Both the position numbers and the translations under genes were made by a program. Source: Clostridia bacterium (GTDB lineage Bacteria; Bacillota; Clostridia; Christensenellales; Borkfalkiaceae). From it: a DNA stretch of 64,000 nt. The notes beneath the pieces were generated by a model that ran no database searches, was not told the DNA's origin, and saw only the letters and a list, made by a program, of their open reading frames with translations. Within the stretch, counting starts at the first letter, position 1. The number at the start of each line of letters is the position of its first letter. The stretch is from assembly GCA_029059705.1 (NCBI GenBank), contig JAIDVM010000014.1:1-64000 (forward strand), given 5' to 3'. Shown piece by piece: positions 1 to 45,503 of the stretch.

Positions 1-25
1 AATTTTCCAGCTGTACTTTATTCAT
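1..25 (-). CDS. start of an unidentified gene running off the left edge
   Basis: On the minus strand an ATG (complement of 23-25) opens a frame reading MNKVQLEN before the window ends. It is supported by a good promoter (71-99) and by the repeat cassette (44-140) directly upstream, which in its second copy at 15663 also precedes a gene start. No strong Shine-Dalgarno is visible (a TTCGGGA lies nearby). Only eight residues are visible, so no function can be given; other start codons further left are possible. Confidence 0.4.
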
Positions 26-43
26 ATTTTTCCCGAATTTATG

Positions 44-140
44 CGTAAAATTACTGTTTATCGTACAATCATTATAACAAAACCACAATAAAAAAGCAAG
101 AAGAGCTAGAATATCTGCTCCTTGCTTTTATCCCTATGAA
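44..140 (-). repeat. terminator-promoter-leader cassette, copy A
   Basis: Reading on the minus strand from 140 to 44, this stretch aligns over its full length with 15663-15761. The shared blocks are TTCATAGGGATAAA at the start, CTTGCTTTTTT with TTGT in the middle, and TACGATAAACAGTAATTT with ACG at the end. Between the first and middle block is a stem-loop (AAAAGCAAG plus GAGC against GCTC-TT-CTTGCTTTT) followed by a T tract. The -35 of a promoter overlaps the T tract, and the last conserved block would be the beginning of the 5' UTR. The hairpin bases differ from copy B while pairing is kept. Confidence 0.8.
71..99 (-). promoter_or_regulatory. sigma-A promoter of the left-edge gene
   Basis: On the minus strand TTGCTT (complement of 94-99), a 17-base spacer and TATAAT (complement of 71-76). 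Transcription would start near 64, about 40 bases before the ATG at 25. The -35 hexamer is part of the T tract following the cassette hairpin. Confidence 0.65.
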
Positions 141-4642: not shown

Positions 4643-7600
4643 ATGACGGTGAAGGATAAAAATAACGGTAAAGAAAGAAAAACTTCATATATTTTCACGC
4701 GCGAAACCTTTGGCATGACGACGCTTTTATTCTGCGCCGTGGTTTTAATAATGCTTTTAACGCGCAATCTCGTGTTTGCGGACATAGGCAGCGCAATATG
4801 CACCTTTATGTACGGAACGTTCGGCTACGGCAGCTATTTGGTGCTTGCGGCGTTAAGCTATCTCGGCATATGGCTCGCGTTTGAAAAAAAGGTAAAAATC
4901 TCGTTTTTGCGCGCCTTGTGGATTTCGCTCACGCTGCTTTGCGTATTCATGCTCGCGCACGCCGCAACCACGGCAACCTATGTCATGGACGGCTACGGCA
5001 AATACATTTCCGACTGTTACGTAAACGCGGCAAAAGGCTGGTCGGGCTATACGGGCGGCGGCGTAATTTCCGCAATTCTGGTCTATCCCGTCGCAAAATA
5101 TCTCACTTTTATCGGCGCTTATATAATTTTCTCGGTTTTAACCGTTTTATTCGGCTATCTCACGTTCCTTTCGTTTAAAGGAAGAAAGGGCGCGGCAAAT
5201 AAGGCGACGGTAAACGTTCAAACCGAAAATGTAACCGCACAGCAACAGCAAAGCGTTGCTCAGCCCGTCGTTGAAGAACACGTTTCGGAAGCTCCCGCGC
5301 AGTATGCGCCCACGCACGCTCCCGCATATTCCGAAGAACCCGCGGCAAACGCAAACGACTTGTCGCAAAAGAACCTCGGCAGAAAAATTCTGTTCGAAAA
5401 CGGCGAATTTGCCGCCGAAAGCTACCGCAGAAATATGATTTTTAACGAAAGCTCATACTTCAACCGTCCCCAAGCGCCCCTCGCGAGCGAAGAGGACTAT
5501 TTGCGCAGCTTTACCGAAGGCGGAGCAAAAACCGACGTGCCTAAAAACGGCTACACCGAAAGCTATCAGCAAGAGGTTTACGATTCCCCCGCAAACTCCG
5601 CGCCAGTCAATTATGTTTACGACGAAAAGCCCGCAACCGAGTTCGGCAATTACGAAGACAATTATAACAATAACTCATATAACGAGCCTTATTCGCCCCC
5701 TTACGAGCAGCCCGCCGTGCCGCCCGTATACGAGCAAAAGCCCGAACCTTATCAGCCTGTAAGCTACGGCAACGCGGAGGACGATTATCCAGAATATACC
5801 GAAGGGGAGGAGTATAAGCCCAACGTTTACGGACAGGCTCCCGAAGCTCCTTACCGTTCCGAACGCATCGAAGAAGCTCCCGCAGAACCCGTAAACGAAA
5901 TAAGAAACGTGGGCTTTGGCGACCGTGAAGAACCCCGCAAAACGGAGGATATCCCCGCGGTAACCGACGAACAACCCTTTATGCGCCGCGAAAACCGCGC
6001 GGAGCAGCGGAGGAACAGCGAGCTGTTCGACAGCGACGAGCTTGACGACGAGGACGTGTTCGGCAGACCTTTAAGACGCGGCGCGCCCGAAGACTTGAAC
6101 GCGGGCGAACCCGTCCGCCGCACCGCGGAAGACCGCGCCCCCCGCGGCATACCCGAACAGCCGGGCATAACGGAAGAACGCCGCACCGTGCCTTTAAGAC
6201 CGGTAGAGCCGCCCAAACCCGCCGCGCCCGCGCAGCCCGCTCAAAGCGATGAGCCGCCCAAGCCCGAAGAAAAACCCAAACACATTTGGAAAAAGTACGT
6301 CCGTCCTTCCTTGGATTTGCTTGACGACTATCCCGAAAATTCCAACGTAAACACGGGCGAAATCGAGGACAACAAGCGCATAATAGTCGAATCCCTAGGC
6401 AGATACAGAATTGCTTCCGAGGTTTCAAACGTTACCATAGGCCCCGCAATTACGCGCTACGACGTAATTATTCAGGACAAAACCAAGGTTAAGGAAGCCT
6501 TAAAGTACCGCGACGCGATAGCAATGGAGCTAAGAAAGGACAACGTTACGGCTTACCTCAACTATACCAAGGGCGCGCTTTCGATAGAAGTTCCCAACAA
6601 CCGCCGCACGATTGTCGGGCTTAAAAGCATGCTCGCAAGCTCCAACTTTTTAAACAGCAAGCCGTACTCGCTCACGTTCGGGCTTGGTAAAAACGTCGAC
6701 GGCGACGTCGTTTGCCCCGACATAACCAAAATGCCCCACCTGCTTGTCGCGGGCACTACGGGCAGCGGTAAAAGTATCTGTTTAAGCGCGCTGCTCATAA
6801 GCTTGCTCTATAAATACGGCCCCGAAGAGCTTAGGTTAATTCTCGTTGACCCCAAACAGGTGGAATTCGTTTCCTACGACAAGCTGCCGCACTTAATGAT
6901 TAACGAAATTTTATACGAGTGCAACAAAGCAATAAAGGCTTTAAACTGGGCAATCAACGAAATGGAGCACCGCTACGCGCTGTTCAAGGAAATGACCGAA
7001 GCGGGCAGAGCAACCAAAACGCTCGACGAATACAACGCGCATCTTCCCGAGGGCGAAGAAAAACTGCCCAAAATCTTAATCGTCCTCGACGAGTTCGGCG
7101 ATTTGATGCTGCAAGCCAAAAAAGACATAGAAACGAGAATTATAAAGCTCGTTCAAAAGGCGCGCGCGGCGGGCATACATTTAATTCTCGCAACGCAGCG
7201 TCCCTCGGTCGACTGCATTACCGGTCTTATAAAGTCCAACCTTCCCACAAGAATAGGCTTTAAAGTAAACTCGTTCGACGACGCGAAAACCATTTTCGAC
7301 TTCGGCGGCGCCGAAAAGCTTTTGGGCAAGGGCGACTTGTATTACCGCTCGCCCGACGGCGCCGACCTTGCCAGAATTCAAGGTTGCTTCGTTGATACGC
7401 ACGAGGTGCAAAAAGTAACCGACTTCGTCAAAGCCAACAACGAAACGTATTTCGACCAAAGCGTTTCCGACTTTATCAACACCGTAGAGCAGGAGGAAAC
7501 GCCCGCCTCGCTTAGCAGCAGCGGCGACGGCGAAGAGGTAAACACCGACACCAAGATAGACGACACCTTTATAAAAGCCTTAAAATATTGCGTAACCTCA

Positions 7601-7780
7601 AACCAGGCGTCCGTTTCCATGATTCAGCGCCGTTTCCCCGTGGGCTATATAAAGGCGTGCAAAATTATCGACTGGATGGAAAAAATGAACTACGTAACCC
7701 AGTCCGAAGGCTCGAAACCGAGAAAAGTCTTGCTCTCGAAGGATGAGTTTTTAATGACGTTCGGAGACGTTGATGATTGA
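4643..7780 (+). CDS. ftsK: DNA translocase FtsK/SpoIIIE
   Basis: Membrane-anchored hexameric motor that pumps chromosomal DNA through the closing septum. The N-terminal 180 residues contain about four membrane segments; residues 185-550 are a Pro/Glu/Tyr-rich low-complexity linker, and the RecA-like motor follows with Walker A GTTGSGKS near residue 704 and Walker B KILIVLDEFGDLM near 813. The C-terminal gamma winged helix (SVSMIQRRFPVGYIKACKIIDWME) recognises chromosome orientation sequences. At 1045 residues it is longer than SpoIIIE because of the linker. The GGAG at 4638 leaves one base before ATG 4643 but seven before the in-frame GTG 4649, so translation more likely begins at GTG 4649. 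The end overlaps rimO. Confidence 0.95.
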   Translation: MTVKDKNNGKERKTSYIFTRETFGMTTLLFCAVVLIMLLTRNLVFADIGSAICTFMYGTFGYGSYLVLAALSYLGIWLAFEKKVKISFLRALWISLTLLCVFMLAHAATTATYVMDGYGKYISDCYVNAAKGWSGYTGGGVISAILVYPVAKYLTFIGAYIIFSVLTVLFGYLTFLSFKGRKGAANKATVNVQTENVTAQQQQSVAQPVVEEHVSEAPAQYAPTHAPAYSEEPAANANDLSQKNLGRKILFENGEFAAESYRRNMIFNESSYFNRPQAPLASEEDYLRSFTEGGAKTDVPKNGYTESYQQEVYDSPANSAPVNYVYDEKPATEFGNYEDNYNNNSYNEPYSPPYEQPAVPPVYEQKPEPYQPVSYGNAEDDYPEYTEGEEYKPNVYGQAPEAPYRSERIEEAPAEPVNEIRNVGFGDREEPRKTEDIPAVTDEQPFMRRENRAEQRRNSELFDSDELDDEDVFGRPLRRGAPEDLNAGEPVRRTAEDRAPRGIPEQPGITEERRTVPLRPVEPPKPAAPAQPAQSDEPPKPEEKPKHIWKKYVRPSLDLLDDYPENSNVNTGEIEDNKRIIVESLGRYRIASEVSNVTIGPAITRYDVIIQDKTKVKEALKYRDAIAMELRKDNVTAYLNYTKGALSIEVPNNRRTIVGLKSMLASSNFLNSKPYSLTFGLGKNVDGDVVCPDITKMPHLLVAGTTGSGKSICLSALLISLLYKYGPEELRLILVDPKQVEFVSYDKLPHLMINEILYECNKAIKALNWAINEMEHRYALFKEMTEAGRATKTLDEYNAHLPEGEEKLPKILIVLDEFGDLMLQAKKDIETRIIKLVQKARAAGIHLILATQRPSVDCITGLIKSNLPTRIGFKVNSFDDAKTIFDFGGAEKLLGKGDLYYRSPDGADLARIQGCFVDTHEVQKVTDFVKANNETYFDQSVSDFINTVEQEETPASLSSSGDGEEVNTDTKIDDTFIKALKYCVTSNQASVSMIQRRFPVGYIKACKIIDWMEKMNYVTQSEGSKPRKVLLSKDEFLMTFGDVDD

Positions 7781-9107
7781 TTTTACAAAGAAAAAATTCG
7801 GAATTATTTCGCTCGGCTGCGATAAAAACCGCGTTGATTCCGAAAAACTTTTGTCAATAATTAAATCGGCGGGCTGCGAAATTACCGACGATATAGCCGC
7901 CGTTCAGGTGCTGATAGTCAACACCTGCGCGTTTTTAAACTCGGCGCGCAAGGAAGCGATTGAAACGGTAATCGATTTCGCCGCATATAAAAGCGAAAAT
8001 CTCGAAAAACTTGTGGTTACGGGTTGTTTGCCGCAAAAATTTGTCAACGAAACCTTTCCCGCATTAACCGAAGCCGACGTCTTTTTGGGCACTAACGATT
8101 ACGATAAATTTTTCGAGGCCCTCGAAAAGTCCTATTCGGGCGACCGCATAAACTACGTGGGAACGGGTTCCGCCGCGTTTATTGCCGACAGAGTTGTAAC
8201 AACCCCGCAGCATTACGCTTATTTAAAAATCGCGGACGGCTGCAACAACCGCTGTACTTATTGCCTAATCCCCAAAATCCGCGGCAGATACGTGAGCTAC
8301 GCCATGGAAGACCTTTTAAAAGAGGCTGAGGAGCTTGGCGATGTTTCCGAGCTTATTTTGGTTGCGCAGGACGTAACCCGTTACGGAATAGATTTATATG
8401 GGCAAAAAAAATTAAAAACTTTTTTGCAAAACCTGACAACACTTGTCAACATTAATAGTGTAAGATTATTATACAGTTATCCCGATATGCTCGACGACGA
8501 GCTTATCGCCGAAATCCGCGACAATCCGAAGATAATTAAATATCTCGATATCCCGCTCCAACACAGCGAAAACGGCGTTTTAAAGCGCATGAACCGCCCC
8601 GCGGGAAGGGAAGAATATTTAAATCTTATTAAAAAACTGCGGAAAAATATTCCCGATATTGCGCTCCGTTCAACCTTTATTGCGGGTTTTGCGGGCGAAA
8701 CGGAAGAGGATTTTGAAAATCTTTGCACGTTTTTAAAGGAAGCCCAGCTAGATAACTGCGGGTTTTTCGCTTACTCGCGCGAGCCCGACACGCCCGCCTA
8801 TAAATTAAAGGGACAAGTTCCCGCGGCGGTTAAAAAGAGGCGCGTTAAGGCTTTGTATAGCGTTCAAAAGGAAATTTCGCGCAAAAAGCTTGAAAGGCGG
8901 GTTGGCACAACCTTAAAAGTTTTGTGCGACGGAATAGATTACGACAAAAACTGCTTTGTCGGCAGAGCATATTTTCAGGCTCCCGATATCGACGGAAAGG
9001 TGTATTTCAACGCTTATAACGCCGTTCAGGGCGAATATTACGACGTTTTAATCGAAAAATGCGACAGTTACGACCTTTACGGGCGCGAAAAGGATTACGA
9101 TTTATGA
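7773..9107 (+). CDS. rimO: ribosomal protein S12 methylthiotransferase RimO
   Basis: Radical-SAM enzyme that adds a methylthio group to an aspartate of ribosomal protein S12. It opens with the RimO-specific FGIISLGCDKNRVDSE, followed by the auxiliary-cluster cysteines (NTCAF, TGCLPQK), the radical SAM CNNRCTYC motif, LRSTFIAGFAGETEEDF and a C-terminal TRAM domain. ATG 7773 is seven bases after GGAG and overlaps the ftsK stop, so it is preferred over the TTG three bases earlier. The gene overlaps pgsA by ATGA. The second methylthiotransferase of the window, miaB, is at 29177. Confidence 0.96.
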   Translation: MIDFTKKKFGIISLGCDKNRVDSEKLLSIIKSAGCEITDDIAAVQVLIVNTCAFLNSARKEAIETVIDFAAYKSENLEKLVVTGCLPQKFVNETFPALTEADVFLGTNDYDKFFEALEKSYSGDRINYVGTGSAAFIADRVVTTPQHYAYLKIADGCNNRCTYCLIPKIRGRYVSYAMEDLLKEAEELGDVSELILVAQDVTRYGIDLYGQKKLKTFLQNLTTLVNINSVRLLYSYPDMLDDELIAEIRDNPKIIKYLDIPLQHSENGVLKRMNRPAGREEYLNLIKKLRKNIPDIALRSTFIAGFAGETEEDFENLCTFLKEAQLDNCGFFAYSREPDTPAYKLKGQVPAAVKKRRVKALYSVQKEISRKKLERRVGTTLKVLCDGIDYDKNCFVGRAYFQAPDIDGKVYFNAYNAVQGEYYDVLIEKCDSYDLYGREKDYDL

Positions 9108-15639: not shown

Positions 15640-15662
15640 CCGCTCCGAGTTATTCGGGGCGG
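15640..15662 (+). terminator. hairpin downstream of rny
   Basis: Nine-base-pair GC-rich stem CCGCTCCGA / TCGGGGCGG with loop GTTAT. There is no T run behind it; the T-tract hairpin of repeat copy B follows directly, so the two may act as a tandem terminator for rny. Confidence 0.55.
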
Positions 15663-15761
15663 TTCATAGGGATAAAGCAGCGAGGAAAGATGGTTACAGC
15701 TTTCCTTGCTTTTTTGTTGTATTTTTGCTATACTGTAACTACGATAAACAGTAATTTAACG
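15663..15761 (+). repeat. terminator-promoter-leader cassette, copy B
   Basis: Plus-strand counterpart of 44-140. It begins with TTCATAGGGATAAA and contains the stem AAAGCA-GCG-AGGAAAG against CTTTCCT-TGCTTT with a T tract, then the promoter, then the conserved leader block TACGATAAACAGTAATTT. The stem bases nearest the loop differ from copy A (AGGAAAG/CTTTCCT here, GAGC/GCTC there) but pairing is preserved in both. It sits between rny and an AT-rich orphan gene. Confidence 0.8.
15706..15734 (+). promoter_or_regulatory. promoter inside cassette copy B
   Basis: TTGCTT (15706-15711), 17-base spacer, TATACT (15729-15734), matching position by position the promoter in copy A. Start site near 15741; the ATG at 15771 has GGAG eight bases upstream. 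Confidence 0.7.
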
Positions 15762-15770
15762 GAGAACATC

Positions 15771-16142
15771 ATGCAAGAAATCGCCGAAATGTTTAGTCAA
15801 TACAATAATAATACTTTGAAATGGATAGACTCCTTAAAAAAGTTAAAGCAATTAGAAGATGAGGAAAAAATCGTTTTATATGCTGGCACTTATTCTTTTG
15901 AAGAAGCATTAAGGCATCTTGATAGTGATGTGGCAAATTTTTATTTTTATACTTTGCCCGATAGGCAAGGATATCATTTTTTTACTAATCCATTTGGAAG
16001 TGAAGCAGTTATAATGATAGATAACGATATTTTTACATTCAAACATAAAAAATTGTATAACAAAAAACATTTAACTAATTGCTACTTCGGGGAGAAAGAT
16101 TTTAGAAGCGGTGAATATTTCAATTGTAAAAAGAAACGATAA
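15771..16142 (+). CDS. hypothetical protein, 123 residues
   Basis: I do not recognise this gene. The ATG at 15771 is chosen because ACGGAG precedes it; an earlier in-frame ATG (15690) lies inside the cassette hairpin upstream of the promoter. The protein begins MQEIAEMFSQYNNNTLKWID, is soluble, rich in Lys, Tyr and Phe, has no signal peptide or membrane segment, and ends in a basic NCKKKR tail. The gene is markedly more AT-rich than rny and padR on either side and uses A/T-ending codons, which suggests foreign origin. It is a single-gene unit bounded by cassette copy B and a strong terminator. Confidence 0.65.
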   Translation: MQEIAEMFSQYNNNTLKWIDSLKKLKQLEDEEKIVLYAGTYSFEEALRHLDSDVANFYFYTLPDRQGYHFFTNPFGSEAVIMIDNDIFTFKHKKLYNKKHLTNCYFGEKDFRSGEYFNCKKKR

Positions 16143-16178
16143 ATTTCAATTTAGCGTGCTAAACGTTAAAAAGTATAA

Positions 16179-16218
16179 CCCGCTATCTTCGTAAGCGAAG
16201 TATAGCGGGCTATTTGTT
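16179..16218 (+). terminator. terminator after the orphan gene
   Basis: Hairpin CCCGCTATCTTCG-TAAG-CGAAG-T-ATAGCGGG (one bulged T) followed by CTATTTGTTTGTT. It converges on the padR-like gene. Confidence 0.75.
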
Positions 16219-16263
16219 TGTTCACAAAAACATCATTTATTTGGAGCGGTTAATTTTGACCTT

Positions 16264-45428: not shown

Positions 45429-45503
45429 TGGCAGGGGAGACACGATTCGAACATGCAACCGACGGTTTTGGAGACCGCGACTCTACCGTTGAGCTACTCC
45501 CCT
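45429..45503 (-). tRNA. trnW: tRNA-Trp (CCA anticodon)
   Basis: Minus strand. The acceptor AGGGGAG pairs with CTCCCCT; the D arm contains GCTCAACGGTAGAG, the anticodon arm GCGGT-CTCCAAA-ACCGT has anticodon CCA, and the T arm contains GTTCGAATC. Discriminator G and the CCA end are encoded (45429-45431). Length 75 bases with CCA. It is a single tRNA gene, antisense to the spacer upstream of proC. Confidence 0.95.

Follow-up and report, generated by a model that had tools for sequence, protein, structure and literature searches.

Among described systems, the closest to the locus reported here are integrons, in which promoter-less single-gene cassettes, each with a site at its 3' end, are captured behind a resident promoter beside an attI site and may stand in arrays. 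The crossover leaves one type of site at the promoter and the other at each cassette end. To our knowledge, integrons have been described mainly outside Clostridia. Hairpin-targeting insertion elements are also known, with IS1397 and ISKpn1 inserting in the loops of REP sequences. In the dif (pdif) modules of Acinetobacter, short Xer-type sites bound small gene modules that are moved in trans and have no recombinase of their own (PMC6449649, PMC13141974), and the rAID arrays of Bacteroidales, which adjoin a tyrosine recombinase, consist of short co-oriented immunity genes (PMC12247911).

The DNA analysed here (the window) is a stretch of 64,000 nucleotides at the beginning of contig C6 of its source genome (G000; 1.51 Mb in 41 contigs). 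It holds two copies, A and B, of an element that we read, with a probability of roughly 85%, as a platform at which mobile single-gene cassettes dock and of which many more are scattered over the genome, an integron-like but distinct system. As far as sequence can tell, each of the integron traits above has a counterpart here, including the combination of a resident promoter, promoter-less single-gene cassettes and arrays that characterizes integrons. The cargo here, with GNAT, glyoxalase, PNPOx and WapI genes and many orphans, is similar to that of integrons as well. An integron, however, has one platform, with attI beside the integrase gene, whereas the attI-like sites here are dispersed, with many platforms per genome and usually one cassette each. 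Integrons come with IntI and long folded attC sites, whereas here no IntI is found over the cut-off and the cassette site is an 8-6-8 inverted repeat of about 20 bp, and the platform, unlike that of integrons, is MITE-like and seated in terminator loops.

The element shares with MITEs and hairpin-targeting elements that it is short, non-autonomous, bounded by terminal inverted repeats and inserted in hairpin loops, but it additionally bears an insulator, a promoter and a cassette docking core. With rAID arrays it has in common short co-oriented genes, conserved intergenic motifs and immunity-type cargo (WapI here). There, a tyrosine recombinase heads an array of immunity genes, whereas here single cassettes are dispersed, the cargo is mostly non-immunity and the hosts belong to a different phylum.

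Two copies of a proposed platform

The original prediction had noticed that two intergenic stretches are alike, and they do align (copy A, 140–48 on the minus strand; copy B, 15663–15757 on the plus strand). Their shared 18-base block, TACGATAAACAGTAATTT, occurs exactly twice in the window, where 0.09 matches would be expected by chance even with three mismatches permitted, and TTCATAGGGATAAA likewise has exactly two occurrences there. The promoter geometry was also read correctly, with TTGCTT-17-TATAAT in copy A and TTGCTT-17-TATACT in copy B. The parts of the two copies are as follows.

15640–15646, plus strand: CCGCTCC, left half of the stem of the host's rny terminator, which platform B splits; exact complement of 16243–16249
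15647–15676, plus strand: left end of platform B with TTCATAGGGATAAA, the class-1 terminal repeat, degenerate in copy B (sequence comparison)
15677–15715, plus strand: hairpin terminator of platform B, an upstream insulator; stem ..GAGGAAAG/CTTTCCTTGC, then T6 (sequence, hairpin alignment)
15706–15711, plus strand: −35 TTGCTT of copy B, overlapping the T run of the terminator (sequence)
15729–15734, plus strand: −10 TATACT of copy B after a 17-bp spacer, 5 nt upstream of TACGATAAA (sequence)
15741–15758, plus strand: 5' core of copy B, an attI-like junction; left arm ACGATAAA, centre CAGTAA, right arm TTTA (sequence comparison)
15759–16139, plus strand: cassette of copy B; ACGGAG ribosome-binding site and orphan ORF (ORF 15771–16142, 123 aa)
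16136–16157, plus strand: attC-like 3' core of the copy B cassette, ACGATAAA-TTTCAA-TTTAGCGT; one mismatch short of a perfect inverted repeat
16170–16215, plus strand: downstream terminator hairpin of platform B (AACCCGCTAT..ATAGCGGGCTATTTG) (sequence; homologues at other platforms)
16218–16242, plus strand: probable right end of platform B, degenerate (comparison with L031, L004 and L221)
16243–16249, plus strand: GGAGCGG, right half of the stem of the split rny terminator (sequence; permutation test on 30 platforms)
127–140, minus strand: left terminal repeat of copy A, TTCATAGGGATAAA (copy A/B alignment)
88–126, minus strand: platform hairpin terminator of copy A, with −35 TTGCTT at 99–94 (sequence, hairpin alignment)
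71–76, minus strand: −10 TATAAT of copy A (sequence)
47–64, minus strand: 5' core of copy A, ACGATAAA-CAGTAA-TTTT (motif search)
1–46, minus strand: start of the copy A cassette (MNKVQLEN..), cut by the contig end; whole in the relative L221

Because the window begins at a contig end, only eight codons of the copy A gene are visible. In the relative L221 the gene is whole, encodes 229 aa and is closed by a 3' core, and it was not found elsewhere in G000. As had been supposed, the downstream genes cannot be assigned: the 123-aa product of copy B has no match in Pfam or NCBIfam, and the copy A gene, judged in its whole form in L221, matches no family either. The sole Rfam match in the window is a tRNA gene at 45432–45503 on the minus strand.

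An alignment of 27 class-1 hairpins, in which the copy B row is short and contributes nothing to the 3' arm, bears out the proposed covariation, with two-sided compensatory changes at four of eight stem pairs. TTCATAGGGATAAA, on the other hand, had been counted as part of this hairpin and is instead the left terminal repeat of the platform. The 18-base block is a common leader as proposed, but not a leader alone, since it appears to form the left part of a recombination core. A terminator acting as insulator together with a common promoter and leader is supported as an architecture, while co-regulation of the downstream genes finds no support beyond the common promoter. The earlier interpretation thus stands in part; it missed the 3' core, the independent movement of genes, the arrays, the terminal repeats and the host-terminator seat.

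Further copies, which had been anticipated, are numerous. The 15-mer TACGATAAACAGTAA has five exact copies in G000, against none for a reversed-pattern control, and TACGATAAACAGTAATTTARCGG (up to three mismatches) occurs in 46 of 93 genomes of the genus, in up to 11 copies each, its reversed control matching in none of the 93. Other families of the order, as sampled, are essentially without the block. An exact search of 84,980 genomes returned 96 stretches, and the records listed from it are Clostridia or otherwise unclassified MAGs, plus three cultured species of Pumilibacteraceae, Pumilibacter muris, P. intestinalis and Anaerocaecibacter muris; the majority of the genomes compared are MAGs. 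Among 2.9 million viral contigs, 23 exact 16-mer matches were found, roughly the chance level as estimated.

Platforms, cores and cassettes

A platform runs from a terminal repeat through a hairpin terminator and the −35 and −10 elements to ACGATAAA-CAGTAA-TTTA, usually 5 nt below the −10. Several unrelated platform classes lie upstream of the block: class 1, to which copies A and B belong, consists of TTARCGGTGTATTTCATAGGGAT, a hairpin, TTGCTTTTTT and the −10, and class 2 begins with TTACCGTAATTCCCATAGGGAATTTA and is about 200 bp long. In a set of 105 sites that was not selected for a promoter, TATAAT (at most one mismatch) lies exactly 5 nt upstream of TACGAT at 71 sites, and TTG is found 17 bp further up from the −10 at 61. 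On the right, platforms finish with the reverse complement of their left end. Both termini carry the repeat in 30 platforms, a few of the right-hand ones being only weak matches. Short, multi-copy, non-autonomous and bounded by terminal inverted repeats, with no transposase gene inside, the platforms answer to the description of MITEs.

The flanks immediately outside these 30 platforms form duplexes with a mean energy of −15.7 kcal/mol, versus −8.4 kcal/mol for shuffled pairs, and 200 shuffles gave a minimum of −10.2 kcal/mol and none lower. As the outer flanks pair far better than shuffled ones, the platform is located within a host terminator loop. The split terminator halves seen in P. muris are AAGCACCCGTCG and CGACGGGTGCTT, and relatives without a platform have an intact terminator hairpin after rny. 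L215 is likely an empty platform, the single case seen. Two unusual forms were also observed: at L218 (G078:C127) the left terminal repeat is joined straight to the core and the promoter is absent, making it a deletion derivative of a platform, and at G000:C9:14629 a 3' core, platform terminator and right end follow a gene without a recognised 5' core, representing a decayed or unusual platform.

A second core, GATAAA-TTTCAA-TTTA, lies directly 3' of the cassette stop codon. A promoter stands at the expected place in 66 of 83 CAGTAA cores and in 8 of 67 TTTCAA cores, these eight being mostly AT-rich chance; in a minority of cores the promoter is missing or its spacing fits poorly. When the right flank is restored, the core becomes an inverted repeat, ACGATAAA-n6-TTTATCGT, and near-perfect inverted-repeat cores with either centre are almost confined to cassette-bearing genomes. 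The base following TTTA differs between 5' and 3' junctions, which places the exchange within the shared AATTTA and leaves the centre with the left arm. A core built as an 8-6-8 inverted repeat points to a tyrosine recombinase. The partner centres CAGTAA and TTTCAA differ at four of six bases, a degree of mismatch that is unusual for these enzymes, and a centre that always travels with the left arm would be compatible with one-strand exchange, no more; in integrons the recombining cassette site is single-stranded and folded.

The cassette is a single ORF after the core, preceded by RCGGAG and starting as RCGGAG-ATG. Tandem arrays of two to three genes are found at L146 (three genes), L145, L143, L157, L064, L076 and L023, the second gene beginning directly at TTTCAA-TTTA-RCGGAG. 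The 118 distinct first cassettes fall into 80 families, with Pfam matches to GNAT acetyltransferases, PNPOx, glyoxalases, alpha/beta hydrolases, GyrI-like proteins, Rce1-like proteases, ferredoxin-type proteins, an ABM monooxygenase and a WapI-type immunity protein; many cassette genes are orphans and immunity cargo is rare. Outside the window, the region G000:C6:68558–69613 (L094) holds a chromosomal relative of a cassette-borne VOC gene (MKLDGFGL..) with no recognised core. Among the sites listed, 16 are no more than 150 bp from a contig start and the cassette side is at the break in 15, a pattern to be expected of cassettes that differ within the population or occur repeatedly in the genome.

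Proposed exchange of genes between platforms

We propose that the platform, which is short, non-autonomous and bounded by terminal repeats, is seated in the loop of a host rho-independent terminator, and that it would supply two terminators, the first of them a hairpin that stops read-through, as well as a sigma-70-type promoter and, at about +1, an attI-like core. Judged from the −10, transcription would start at about ACGATAAA. The cassette would bring one promoter-less ORF with its own ribosome-binding site (RCGGAG) and an attC-like core, GATAAA-TTTCAA-TTTA, at its end, and a site-specific recombinase would join the two within the shared AATTTA. Joining at this place would keep the attI centre at the promoter and the TTTCAA centre at the 3' end of each cassette, and each first cassette is predicted to be expressed from the platform promoter with an identical 5' leader. 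More cassettes could be added in tandem and cassettes could be exchanged; if the system is active at present, GATAAATTTCAATTTARCGGAG is the junction sequence expected of swapped or tandem cassettes and of a putative circular intermediate.

The same gene occurs under different platforms. Homology in such pairs sets in near the 5' core, at −38 to +1, and stops at the 3' core, mostly at +12 to +18. The pair L155/L272 is 99.4% identical over 490 bp, from +1 to +14 of the 3' core, and further pairs share a gene under differing platforms at 95% (L217/L228), 97% (L045/L225) and 97.5% (L067/L253). Conversely, one host locus can carry different genes. Different genes stand behind rny in five genomes (G000, G008, G036, G099/L276 and G100). 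In another case, the pair L077/L253, identity is 94.6% over 1,049 bp and ends at +26, counted in bp beyond the core, after which the two are unrelated. In G021 a DUF6194 gene takes the second place of an array, whereas in G000 it comes first, behind CAGTAA. We infer from these comparisons that cassettes are mobile, and the modularity of genes and platforms favours the earlier idea of a family of mobile genes under a common element.

Genes might also be swapped by ordinary homologous recombination between common promoters and terminators, for which the roughly 200 bp common to platforms of one class could act as homology. This is very unlikely: unrelated platforms that exchange genes have only about 20–40 bp in common around the core, both cores are places where breakpoints cluster, the 3' core spans only about 16–20 bp, and exact junctions are kept in arrays. 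There is a slim chance that platform and gene form one non-autonomous transposon with passenger genes and no exchange at the core. The terminal repeats and the dispersed copies in terminator loops would suit such an element, but one gene is found under different platform classes, genes stand in tandem arrays, and different genes occupy one and the same platform and host locus, the breakpoints falling at the core; L077/L253, L155/L272 and L217/L228 contradict it.

A true integron whose IntI and attC array were lost in assembly or binning would account for the integron-like cargo and layout, and variable regions do get lost from MAGs. This explanation is hardly tenable and already largely contradicted, given that IntI (TIGR02249, NCBIfam cut-off) was found in none of 93 genomes and that cultured isolates retain the same dispersed layout. 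Moreover, the core alone is conserved among 21 internal and 91 terminal cassette junctions, amounting to about 21 bp at the internal ones, and the R''-L''-L'-R' palindrome of attC type is absent from those 21. A regulon, with the block as operator or leader for one regulator at independent promoters, would fit the fixed position of the block at the transcription start and its near-invariant sequence, but can practically be dismissed, as a block variant closes genes at their 3' ends and joins array genes without a promoter, and homology breaks at the block in both directions. Simple duplication of A and B, the alternative raised with the original prediction, is ruled out by unrelated downstream genes, the many further copies and the 80 families among 118 distinct cassettes.

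Candidate recombinases and significance

No recombinase could be tied to the core sites in a comparison of G000, the three isolates and cassette-free genomes. The tyrosine recombinases tested are XerC/D-like, under equivalog cut-offs. The sole family seen in G000 that also occurs, judged by size and match, in each of the three isolates is the housekeeping Xer, present as a single copy. It was rejected as ubiquitous: cassette-free genomes also carry it, and the distribution of the cores does not follow that of Xer. What leaves it a candidate is solely the use of Xer in trans by dif modules. Like pdif modules, the cassettes are small gene modules between short sites with no recombinase of their own. 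The sites flanking pdif modules are dif-like, 28 bp long and used by XerC/XerD. The cores here are, however, directly repeated, with arms that do not look like dif by eye, and near-perfect cores with these centres are almost absent from cassette-free genomes despite Xer there. The elements here are also chromosomal, and each platform provides a promoter and terminators. In G000, the L094 region mentioned above also places the housekeeping Xer shortly upstream of a lexA-like gene.

A 294-aa XerC-like family (alignment A2) has two copies in G000, at contig starts, and is also present in A. muris (L339); it was not recognised in the Pumilibacter isolates. It was rejected as the recombinase on two grounds: it appears to be missing from most motif-rich genomes, and it has a different site of its own, AAATAA-CTNNNNA-TTATTT. 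This site, whose centre is variable, follows a 294–299-aa XerC-like recombinase at L171 (G014:C3:88000–99000, at about 6340–8350) and is also present in the first 150 bases of G000:C4 and G000:C10; contigs often terminate exactly at it. At L171, two inverted copies with the identical centre CTATTGA flank what is possibly a TIR-domain gene and an opposed gene, and the locus may undergo phase-variable inversion or belong to a second cassette system. A XerC-like gene lies 340 bp upstream of the attI-like site at L143, one exception to the rule that these sites do not adjoin an integrase gene, and it may be due to chance. A further locus in P. muris (L359, G117:C3:33000–42000) resembles type I restriction-modification loci, with several specificity-like genes and a tyrosine recombinase, and is probably an invertible hsdS.

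No prior description of the cassette system was found in the literature searched, whose coverage mostly excluded subscription papers and preprints. We lean towards the view that the platforms and cassettes represent a new class of gene capture, a kind of dispersed integron. Its many attI platforms, MITE-like, equipped with promoters and seated in host terminators, would exchange single-gene cassettes from a pool common to the genus, using short double-stranded cores and a trans-acting recombinase unrelated to IntI, and would give one cell many independent expression slots. If this holds, cassette capture behind a resident promoter would have arisen more than once, and the platforms would be compact, modular natural landing pads for gene expression. 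Cultured hosts exist, making the system directly testable. For small-genome gut Clostridia, the system would explain how accessory genes are swapped one at a time, each served by a promoter and insulated from its neighbours.
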